This document shows, in pieces, positions 35,895 to 39,037 of a stretch of 53,152 nt of DNA (positions are counted from its first letter, which is position 1; each line of letters starts with the position of its first letter). Origin of the DNA: Gammaproteobacteria bacterium (GTDB taxonomy: Bacteria > Pseudomonadota > Gammaproteobacteria > UBA6429 > Thiohalophilaceae). The notes beneath the pieces are model-generated. The model was not told the origin of the DNA, made no database searches, and saw nothing but the letters and a program-made list of their open reading frames with translations. The position numbers and the translations under genes are program-made. Location: assembly GCA_026196045.1 (NCBI GenBank), contig JAPHRJ010000018.1, positions 1 to 53,152 of the forward strand, given 5' to 3'.

Positions 35895-37280
35895 TCAAAG
35901 AGATGCTTCAGTTGTCGTGCTCTTTTCTCCCAAATGCTGTTTAATAATATCCTCATAATCACGAATACTATTTACATAACGTACTGGTTCCCAGCCACGC
36001 GCATAACCATACTTTAAGGTCTTATAGTATTTTTTCTTGGCCAGTAAAGGTAATACTTCCTGCAATTCCACCCACAAATAAGGATTTTTATTCTCACGCT
36101 GTGCCAGTTCAAAAGCATCACGCAAGTGTCCATAACCAATATTATAAGCTGCCAGTGCCATCCAGATCCGATCCTCACCAGTAATATCTTCTGGTAAACG
36201 CTTCATTAATTTTGCCAGATATTTTGCACCACCCATTATATTTGCATAAGCATCCAGCCGGCTTTCGACTCCCAGTTCACGGGCAGTGGGTAAGGTCAGC
36301 ATCATCATTCCACGTACGCCTGTTGGACTTTTTGCACGTGGGTTCCAGTGTGATTCCTGGTAGGACTGTGCCGCCAATAATGTCCAGTTTATTTCGTGTT
36401 TTTTCCCTGCCTGTATAAACATATCTTTATATTTAGGAAGAACTCTTTTTATTTTCCGAGTTAAAGCGCGCGTGTCGACATAATCGAACTTATTTATATG
36501 TCCGTAATACTTCTCTGTAAGTTTTTCCAGTACACCGTCTCGTTTGATTTCATCAAACCAGTCCTGTACTTTGTTATTTAAACTGCCTGCATCCAGGCGC
36601 ATCATCCATGCTAAAGTGTCCGCCTTTCCAATATCAAACCGGACACTGAGTTCAGGCAAATAACGGCGGTTAACTGCAACAATATTTGAATCAGCAATCG
36701 TGCAATCTATTTTTTGTTGCCAGACTTGTTCGAGTAAATCTTCAGTGTTGGCCGACTCAATCACATTCCATTCTAGATCACGATGCTTGACTTTCAATGC
36801 TTCAAGTCGTTCAGCATAGCTGCTATTTGCTAATACGGATAATTCTATATCGATAAGCTCTTCTATTTTTTTTGGCCGCGCACCACCTCGTCGACAAACC
36901 AGTTGTTGTTTTACTTCCTGATAACCTGGCCCAAATAAAAAGCCATCTTCACGTTCGCTGGTTTTAGTCAACCCTGCCGCAGCGATATCCCCATCGCCAT
37001 CATTTAATGCCTCAAGAATTTCACCGACATTATCTCTTGTTATAATTTTAACTCTAACACCGAGATAGTCAGCAAAATGTGTAACCAACTCAAACTCAAA
37101 CCCTGCTTGACCATCGCGATCTTCATACCAGGTTGTAGGGGCATTTCGAGTAATGACGACAAGTTGTTTATCTTCCAGGATAGCCTCAAGCCTGCCGGAG
37201 GAAGATGAATTACATCCCGCCACCAACAGACTGACTCCAAAAAACCAATATTTATATTTTAATAATTTTTGATATAACAT
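35895..37280 (-). CDS. mltF: Membrane-bound lytic murein transglycosylase F
   Basis: A lipoprotein (LLVAGC lipobox) with an N-terminal solute-binding-like domain (LVVITRNAPTTWYEDRDGQAGFEFELV) and a C-terminal SLT domain: AAQSYQESHWNPRAKSPTGVRGMMML with the catalytic Glu in QES, then ALAAYNIGYGHLRDA. The layout is that of E. coli MltF. The ATG at 37280 gives the better signal; a GTG at 37292 is in frame. It lies just behind the EamA gene (gap 14-26 bp), so it may be under the same attenuator. It ends 8 bp from the convergent GGDEF-EAL gene. Confidence 0.95.
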   Translation of the reverse strand: MLYQKLLKYKYWFFGVSLLVAGCNSSSSGRLEAILEDKQLVVITRNAPTTWYEDRDGQAGFEFELVTHFADYLGVRVKIITRDNVGEILEALNDGDGDIAAAGLTKTSEREDGFLFGPGYQEVKQQLVCRRGGARPKKIEELIDIELSVLANSSYAERLEALKVKHRDLEWNVIESANTEDLLEQVWQQKIDCTIADSNIVAVNRRYLPELSVRFDIGKADTLAWMMRLDAGSLNNKVQDWFDEIKRDGVLEKLTEKYYGHINKFDYVDTRALTRKIKRVLPKYKDMFIQAGKKHEINWTLLAAQSYQESHWNPRAKSPTGVRGMMMLTLPTARELGVESRLDAYANIMGGAKYLAKLMKRLPEDITGEDRIWMALAAYNIGYGHLRDAFELAQRENKNPYLWVELQEVLPLLAKKKYYKTLKYGYARGWEPVRYVNSIRDYEDIIKQHLGEKSTTTEASL

Positions 37281-37306
37281 TGGCTTTACCACTTCATATT
37301 TAAAAA

Positions 37307-38194
37307 CTATTGTGCGCGAATAAAATATCTATCCAGTTTATGACTCCATTGATAACAGATCATACCAATGAGAATACATACCGTACCCAGCCAGATATAC
37401 TGGTCCAGAACCTCATGATTTAAATACTGCCCCATTAACAAAGCCAATACAGGCGTCATCAGGGCAATCAGGGCTACTCGACTGGCTTCAACATGTTTTA
37501 GCACATAGAAATACATAATGAAACCAAGAACAGAACCAAATACTGCCAGGTAAATTATAGCACTCCCTGTCCGTGTGCTAATGAGATCCGGTAGTTGTCC
37601 ATCAAATACAAACCAGGTAACAAGATATAAAGGTGCAGCAAACAACAAACTACCATTGGTAATTTCCAGCGCAGGTACTTTTGCATCAATGCGTTTTATC
37701 AAGACAGCACTGGTCGAATGGATGAATACAGAAAGTAAAACACCGGCTATTCCCCAGTGAGCCTGAGGGCCAAAATTGATCTTATTCCCAAATATCACCA
37801 CTAATCCTGTAATCCCCAGGATCACACCCAGTAATTTACCTGGTGTAAACGCACGCTCATTAAGGAACATAGCCGCAAGTAAACCCGTGATGATTGGAGT
37901 CAGACCAAACAATACGGACACCAGGCCAGAAGTAATATATTGCGCGCCCCAGTACACGCTCATCATCGCGCCGTATATCCCAAAACACCCAGCCAGATAA
38001 GTCAACACCGCTTCTCGATGCCAGGGTAGTTTACGTGCAAGCACCAACATCAATACTGTACATATCACAGCACTCAGGAGCATACGTGATGCGACACCAA
38101 ACAAAAAACCAACATCTTCACCACTCCATTTAATTCCCAGGGGTGTCGTTGACCATATAATAATGATCCCGATATATGCGGACGGAATAGACAT
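37307..38194 (-). CDS. EamA/DMT-family transporter
   Basis: About 295 residues with ten predicted membrane helices in two EamA repeats: WSTTPLGIKWSG in helix 1, YWGAQYITSGLVSVLFGLTPIITGLLA, LGVILGITGLVVIFG, and in the second half YLAVFGSVLGFIMYFYVLKHVEASRVALIALMTP. Such carriers export amino acids or other small metabolites. The ATG at 38194 follows GGAGAATAAA, so the ATG at 38212 is not used. Upstream lies a leader ORF and a strong terminator, a setting typical for an attenuated gene. The two Trp codons in the leader suggest aromatic amino acids as one possible signal; the substrate is not known. Confidence 0.9.
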   Translation of the reverse strand: MSIPSAYIGIIIIWSTTPLGIKWSGEDVGFLFGVASRMLLSAVICTVLMLVLARKLPWHREAVLTYLAGCFGIYGAMMSVYWGAQYITSGLVSVLFGLTPIITGLLAAMFLNERAFTPGKLLGVILGITGLVVIFGNKINFGPQAHWGIAGVLLSVFIHSTSAVLIKRIDAKVPALEITNGSLLFAAPLYLVTWFVFDGQLPDLISTRTGSAIIYLAVFGSVLGFIMYFYVLKHVEASRVALIALMTPVLALLMGQYLNHEVLDQYIWLGTVCILIGMICYQWSHKLDRYFIRAQ

Positions 38195-38255
38195 TTTATT
38201 CTCCGTAATCATTAAACATATTCACCCAGATTAAATATTCCTGACACCCAAAACG

Positions 38256-38286
38256 AAAAAAACCACACTCTCGAAAGATGTGTGGC
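38256..38286 (-). terminator. Attenuator terminator upstream of the EamA gene
   Basis: On the minus strand: GCCACACA, then TCT-TTCG-AGA, then GTGTGG, then seven T. The stem is 6 bp plus 3 bp around a tetraloop with one bulge. It is about 60 bp before the transporter start, so it can only stop transcription coming from the leader promoter. Two stretches in the upstream leader ORF can pair with its 5' arm. Confidence 0.85.
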
Positions 38287-38314
38287 TTTGGAATTCGACG
38301 CAGATTACTATAAC

Positions 38315-38407
38315 TTACATGCTTTCTCCATACCACACAGACGCGGGCCACACCTTACGCAGGCTGGCTCGAAATTGAATCGCGATAATAATATGCATGT
38401 AGTTCAT
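38315..38407 (-). CDS. 30-residue leader peptide of the EamA gene
   Basis: A short ORF from ATG 38407 to TAA 38315. The second half reads FRASLRKVWPASVWYGESM. Its two Val-Trp codon pairs lie in GTGTGGCC (38346-38353) and TGTGTGG (38333-38339), each complementary to the 5' arm of the terminator (38279-38286). Movement of a ribosome through these codons would therefore decide whether the arm is free. No ribosome site is visible; the promoter lies so close that the message may be leaderless. An in-frame ATG at 38398 is an alternative. Peptide conservation was not tested. Confidence 0.65.
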   Translation of the reverse strand: MNYMHIIIAIQFRASLRKVWPASVWYGESM

Positions 38408-38415
38408 AGTTTAAG

Positions 38416-38444
38416 AGTCTGGGTGTTCAATATGTCACTGTCAA
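38416..38444 (-). promoter_or_regulatory. Promoter of the EamA leader
   Basis: A consensus TTGACA (38444 to 38439), a 17-bp spacer and CAGACT (38421 to 38416; three of six match, including A2 and T6). A start would fall within a few bases of the leader ATG. It lies just beyond the stop of the upstream zinc-ribbon gene. Confidence 0.55.
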
Positions 38445-38452
38445 GACAGAAT

Positions 38453-39037
38453 TCAACAATTCGTATAAAAATAGTTCCATTCTTCACCAGAGACCCGTTT
38501 AAGCAACGACAACAACTGTTGTGTTGGTACCCCTTCATTGGGAAACACACTGTAGATATCAATAAACATACAGGCAAAACCCGCACTGTTGCGCCAGCGA
38601 ATATCTTCTGCAGCACTAACCGTTTCACATTTAGTGCAATGATATTGTGTTGTCTCTGGTGCCTGTTCCCATGCATTAATAAAATCATGCCAGGTTTGAT
38701 CGCGTCGACCACATTCGGGGCAGCGCGCAAAAACATCTCGCTCATGATGACGAAACTGAGCTAATGATGAAATCTCACTAAATGCCACATGACAGAAATC
38801 CAGCCCACCCTGTTCCAGAGGTTCAAGCTCTATATGCGGAGAGCACCCCATAAAGGTGATCATCTGTAAAAAGCTATCACCAATAAAGTATCTACCAGGC
38901 TCGTCTACCGTATACCTTTCACCAAGAAAAGCCTCTTCCCTCAGAACCATGACAATGTCATCCCAGGACTCAGGTGCATATGACATATTTTTGGGGTGTA
39001 AGACCAGACGAAATATAGGTTTTGATTCTACTGTCAT
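38453..39037 (-). CDS. Conserved-type protein with zinc ribbon
   Basis: A 194-residue protein. Two Cys pairs, CPECGRRDQTW and HCTKCETV (about residues 106-137), make a zinc ribbon. The first half has FRLVLHPKNMSYAPESWDDIVMVL and GDSFLQMITFMGCSPHIELEP, a pattern without a family name known to me; the C-terminus has RWRNSAGFACMFIDIYSVFPNEGVP. It is likely soluble and cytoplasmic. It is divergent from the 97-residue gene and just upstream of the EamA leader promoter. Confidence 0.8.
   Translation of the reverse strand: MTVESKPIFRLVLHPKNMSYAPESWDDIVMVLREEAFLGERYTVDEPGRYFIGDSFLQMITFMGCSPHIELEPLEQGGLDFCHVAFSEISSLAQFRHHERDVFARCPECGRRDQTWHDFINAWEQAPETTQYHCTKCETVSAAEDIRWRNSAGFACMFIDIYSVFPNEGVPTQQLLSLLKRVSGEEWNYFYTNC

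Follow-up and report, generated by a model that had tools for sequence, protein, structure and literature searches.

A ribosome-mediated transcription attenuator, probably gated by a tryptophan codon, was predicted upstream of an EamA-type transporter gene on the minus strand of the window, i.e. the 53,152-nucleotide stretch of contig JAPHRJ010000018.1 that was analysed here. Comparative sequence analysis supports the architecture of the leader, its Trp codon and its two alternative pairings. The minus-strand order given in the original prediction, a TTGACA promoter, a 30-codon ORF, a terminator with seven T and then the transporter, is present in full by coordinates (Table 1). The mltF gene, which had been placed behind the transporter, lies directly 3' of EamA in the window and in the 13 other loci where it was found, and its co-control with EamA by the leader is plausible. 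The gene before the leader, at 38453-39037 on the minus strand with its end at 38453, encodes an uncharacterised 194-aa protein with a Cys-x2-Cys zinc-ribbon-like part; a gene of this kind adjoins this leader type in many related genera.

Table 1. Elements of the leader and adjoining genes in the window.
Feature	Position	Strand	Evidence
-35 element TTGACA	38439..38444	-	Sequence; TTGA kept almost throughout the alignment of 63 rows
-10-like element CAGACT	38416..38421	-	17 nt 3' of the -35 element; [CT]A-ACT-like hexamer in relatives
Leader ORF MNYMHIIIAIQFRASLRKVWPASVWYGESM, 30 codons + TAA, ATG at 38407, probably leaderless	38315..38407	-	Sequence; equivalents in 87 distinct leaders
Trp codon 20 (TGG), putative control codon	38348..38350	-	In-frame Trp in the leaders of relatives
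Antiterminator strand CTGTGTGGTATGGAGA, inside the ORF, includes Trp codon 25	38325..38340	-	Duplex predicted with the 5' arm of the terminator; homologue of the CTGYGTGCC strand kept in relatives
Partner strand TTCCAAAGCCACACA, overlaps the terminator 5' arm	38279..38293	-	Duplex prediction; covariation in 63 leaders
Intrinsic terminator AAAGCCACACATCTTTCGAGAGTGTGG-T7	38256..38289	-	Hairpin of -14.3 kcal/mol; run of seven T
EamA/DMT transporter, 295 aa from the MSIP start, ATG at 38194	37307..38194	-	Pfam EamA, E 1e-36; start common to relatives, GGAG upstream
mltF, 14 nt behind EamA, likely same transcript	35895..37292	-	NCBIfam MltF, E 1e-174

An initial DNA search of relatives returned many matches to the start of EamA with the same order of elements upstream. 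To avoid bias, 80 loci were gathered by EamA protein similarity alone, and in 76 of these orthologues a promoter, a short ORF and a terminator were found upstream of EamA. The observation is more than a product of chance, as the architecture recurs in this set chosen by the transporter only, and as the pairing described below beats both codon shuffles and swapped arms. At four of the 80 loci inspected (L066, L086, L092 and L110) no promoter-ORF-terminator leader precedes EamA, and within the same set L062 and L080 have an incomplete or unclear start. According to the record titles, the loci belong to Gammaproteobacteria, Gallionellales (Betaproteobacteria) and Zetaproteobacteria (Mariprofundus), with many marine and sulfur or iron bacteria among the hosts of the leader. 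Pooling of the EamA-collected loci with the family loci gave 87 distinct leaders, whose ORFs range from 22 to 49 codons. A scan of 274 genomes of the class with a covariance model brought in another 40 EamA leaders with an automatically readable peptide. Rfam gave no match at the gathering threshold in the window, and for the leader alone two chance-level matches (E 0.49 and 1.1). In L011 and L015, tandem repeats of the TGCCAGT...ACTGGCA type are inserted between the leader terminator and the EamA start.

An in-frame Trp codon was found in 85 of the 87 distinct leaders, the first one mostly at codons 18-20, and in 39 of the 40 leaders from the scan, a count that is not fully independent since the covariance model includes the Trp columns. 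Together this amounts to 124 of 127 EamA leaders, those without Trp being L024, L095 and L176. Leader L095, from a Lamellibrachia endosymbiont, carries a frame-changing deletion at the Trp codon compared with its relative L078, and has lost Trp. When the peptides were aligned on Trp, this residue reached 4.49 bits and no nearby position exceeded 0.75 bits. The substitutions in the leader ORF at codon positions 1, 2 and 3 (184, 177 and 234) point to a weak coding constraint on the peptide. The peptide end WYGESM had been suggested as a mark by which related leaders could be searched for; it is not kept in relatives, in which the Trp codon alone is kept. The original prediction was also to be given up if relatives lacked conservation of peptide or pairing: the pairing is conserved, while the peptide is hypervariable except for Trp.

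Within codons 12-22, TGG lies in frame in 79 leaders, compared with 40 and 6 leaders for the two remaining frames, and the best pairing strand is located downstream of the Trp codon in most leaders. Both observations speak against the idea that the Trp codon is a by-product, with UGG kept only to pair with the GGCC arm of the terminator in a switch answering to a signal other than translation. In favour of this idea, UGGC is able to form pairs with GGCC[AG], and a Trp codon falls at least partly within the best duplex of 30 of the 87 leaders; such an origin of the codon is nevertheless considered highly improbable. One Trp is present in 60 of the 87 leaders and two or three in 25; in several of them, the window included, a second Trp codon falls inside the antiterminator strand.

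Evidence for a leaderless start comes from the position of the promoter. The distance from the -10 hexamer to the ATG is 6-8 nt in 79 of the 86 leaders with a scored promoter (overall range 6-10 nt; 8 nt in the window), and the spacer from TTGAC to the -10 element is 16-18 nt. Since transcription usually begins about 7 nt past the -10 element, the ORF should begin at or beside the 5' end of the RNA. There is no room for a Shine-Dalgarno sequence before the ATG. The leader ORF is probably leaderless, with a transcript start predicted to coincide with the ATG or to lie no more than about 2 nt from it.

Two segments of the ORF had been proposed as complements of the terminator arm, each containing a Trp codon, and both exist: GTGTGGCC at Trp20 and TCTGTGTGG at Trp25. 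Only TCTGTGTGG, however, occupies the conserved antiterminator position, where it extends to CTGTGTGGTATGGAGA pairing with TTCCAAAGCCACACA (-17.7 kcal/mol for this duplex in the window leader by RNAduplex prediction). The two Trp codons, both seen earlier as regulators, are separated by role: Trp20 is homologous to the conserved control codon of relatives and would be the regulatory one, while codon 25, in GTGTGG, is part of the antiterminator strand. The segment GTGTGGCC around Trp20 is also able to pair with the arm and may contribute when the ribosome is absent. Ungapped matching of a core to the terminator arm was dropped in favour of RNAduplex because it gave scattered sites, the real duplex having a one-base bulge.

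Over the collected leaders, the ORF segment that pairs with the terminator 5' arm starts at a median of 13 nt past the Trp codon and ends before the stop codon, its last pair lying mostly 5-20 nt ahead of the stop by RNAduplex. The 13-nt distance is near that expected between the A site and the leading edge of a ribosome. With its own arm, the segment reached a mean of -16.7, compared with -14.5 with arms of other species, and none of 10,000 permutations was as good; in 81 of 87 leaders the own pairing also surpassed the mean of codon-shuffled versions. The check for covariation in the leader, called for with the original prediction, revealed compensatory changes both in the alignment and on the EamA tree. 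In the alignment of 63 leaders, the antiterminator helix showed 77% paired cells and 30 double-change cells, versus 15.5 in shuffles and 4-16 in slid controls, and the terminator stem was 96.3% paired, again with compensatory changes. Column pair 153-246 of this alignment, for example, is occupied by UA in 22, CG in 21 and UG in 8 leaders. On the EamA tree, all nine inferred G-to-A changes in the arm leave a U partner, four of them with C-to-U on the same branch, although mismatched partners are under-counted in this test as the partner bases were taken from predicted duplexes. The reading as a ribosome-dependent attenuator is thus supported by a pairing that is kept and covaries, together with the Trp codon.

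Folding of the window leader with a constrained ribosome footprint had two outcomes: the antiterminator for a ribosome at Trp20, in a transcript that ends at the 5' arm, and the terminator for a ribosome at the stop codon. The leader folds with the antiterminator also without a ribosome. When the full leader is folded with a ribosome at Trp20, the terminator has the lower energy, and the antiterminator must therefore prevail by kinetics. No protector (1:2) hairpin was detected: the upstream part of the ORF paired with its own segment 2 at -13.8 versus -13.5 with the segments of other leaders.

We infer the start of transcription, translation, pausing, the direction of the response and Trp as the signal as follows. 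Transcription would begin at the ATG of the short ORF or no more than a couple of bases away from it, and the ORF would be read from the 5' end of the RNA without a Shine-Dalgarno sequence. When charged tRNA-Trp is scarce or elongation is slowed, the ribosome would wait once the conserved Trp codon, number 20 in the window leader, has entered its A site, with its leading edge just short of the antiterminator strand. The strand, being free, could pair with the emerging terminator 5' arm, and the polymerase would run on into EamA (and mltF), which is the ON state. A ribosome that has passed Trp and stands at the stop codon would cover the strand, so that the terminator forms and transcription ends (OFF). 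As no protector hairpin was detected, an untranslated leader should also read through. Against this reading stand the usually single Trp codon, the three EamA leaders that lack Trp, the weak coding constraint on the peptide, the enrichment of Arg as well ahead of the Trp codon and the fact that EamA is not a Trp biosynthesis gene; if EamA exports Trp, its induction by Trp shortage would be odd.

A leader of this build could alternatively sense a general slowing or failure of translation (ribosome drugs, stress, poor initiation), with Trp merely a slow codon and EamA a drug or stress exporter. With no protector hairpin detected and an antiterminator fold in the unblocked leader, whatever prevents the leader from being translated should turn the gene on, which would fit such a role. 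DMT/EamA proteins include drug and metabolite exporters, and the second-best NCBIfam match of the transporter is YedA, below cut-off. A precedent is BmrB of Bacillus subtilis, where translation of the leader peptide sets the read-through into the transporter operon bmrCD (PMC4191407), much as leader-peptide translation is proposed here to govern read-through into a transporter gene. The bmrB leader differs in that it senses ribosome-targeting antibiotics, depends on rare codons instead of a conserved amino acid and controls an ABC transporter. A slow-codon device would not need one and the same amino acid in nearly all EamA leaders, and leaders of the same build without Trp stand upstream of argD-like genes (see below), which makes translation sensing of this general kind rather unlikely.

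The stall could also lie in the nascent chain, if basic residues and Trp formed an arrest peptide that halts the ribosome when a small molecule is present (for TnaC, Trp) and thereby frees the antiterminator strand. Arg or Lys ahead of Trp is common in the leaders, and Trp is frequent in known arrest peptides. Arrest peptides of the TnaC type require, however, a defined motif with fixed stall spacing, whereas Trp is the only conserved position here and its distance to the stop codon varies from 7 to 24 residues; we regard this explanation as very unlikely.

The proposed Trp-gated attenuator resembles the trp attenuator (trpL) of E. coli in its short ORF with Trp codons, in mutually exclusive antiterminator and terminator structures that use the terminator 5' arm in common (here with covariation), and in the position of the codon relative to the antiterminator strand, with specific-amino-acid codons fixed ahead of this strand as fits gating by a ribosome. 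It differs from E. coli trpL in several respects: there is mostly one Trp codon in place of a tandem pair, the antiterminator strand is part of the ORF, placed after the control codon and ahead of the stop, no protector hairpin was detected, the ORF appears leaderless, and the target is a DMT transporter, not the trp genes. Published descriptions of amino-acid attenuators have at least two control codons; theory likewise expects this number, and predicts a lower sensitivity if regulatory codons make up only a small share of the control region (PMC1183508). For trpL of Sinorhizobium meliloti (rnTrpL), the leader RNA begins at the ATG of the leader ORF (PMC7298713). An ORF start at the RNA 5' end (predicted here), Trp codons and an intrinsic terminator are shared with that leader; its three consecutive Trp codons, 14-aa peptide and control of trpE(G) set it apart, and no sequence relation was seen. 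The leaderless cysteine attenuators of mycobacteria are likewise short leaderless ORFs serving as amino-acid attenuators, but with Cys-rich ORFs, in another phylum and with another mechanism.

For the transporter itself, no relative of solved structure was found at E 0.001, and its NCBIfam matches, YddG included, are all below cut-off. Full-length matches of the covariance model were also located upstream of two alpha/beta hydrolase genes, two small-protein genes and a second DMT transporter gene, all with Trp in the leader and in the last case with tandem Trp (WW). These Trp leaders (L142 in G170, L156 in G084, L154 in G158, L162 in G273 and L185 in G072) may mark a small regulon, with a small secreted protein among its products. 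In L148 (G073) and L160 (G277), a leaderless ORF and a GGCC terminator precede argD-like acetylornithine transaminase genes, and their peptides are Arg-rich and without Trp (LRMRFMLRLRG and SRRRRPPLR). These two cases suggest that the control amino acid changes with the target gene, with the reservation that the EamA leaders are themselves Arg-rich. A close argD-like gene was found in only 7 of 369 genomes of the class, and on inspection of the five beyond the two with leaders no such leader was seen directly upstream. An argD-like gene is located directly 3' of EamA in one genome and 3' of a DMT transporter gene in another.

Taken across Gamma-, Beta- and Zetaproteobacteria, the leaders could represent a compact and deeply conserved class, for which, judged from the sequences, the chances appear about even: leaderless, with a single control codon and an antiterminator encoded in the stretch from this codon to the stop, without a protector hairpin, controlling a transporter and sometimes other genes, with a control amino acid that changes with the gene. 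No description of this leader, nor of EamA together with a leader peptide and attenuation, was found among openly licensed papers, and EamA and DUF6 are absent from the main text of a genome-wide attenuator survey (PMC2965389). A conserved RNA switch upstream of this transporter seems previously undescribed. If the proposed mechanism holds, a widespread uncharacterised DMT/EamA transporter would be tied to tryptophan supply or to the state of translation, which would offer a starting point for finding its substrate. Amino-acid attenuation would then also be possible with one control codon and without either a Shine-Dalgarno sequence or a protector hairpin; so minimal a design would escape searches that look for control codons in tandem.

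The source genome carries trpE, so the organism probably makes Trp. A comparable Trp attenuator upstream of this trpE was considered and rejected, none being seen on inspection of the upstream region. Between gph and trpE (L189), a short ORF MKMFKHSLNTGERWRA is found together with an inverted repeat GAATTCTGGATCCAGAATC, the latter resembling a repeat element.
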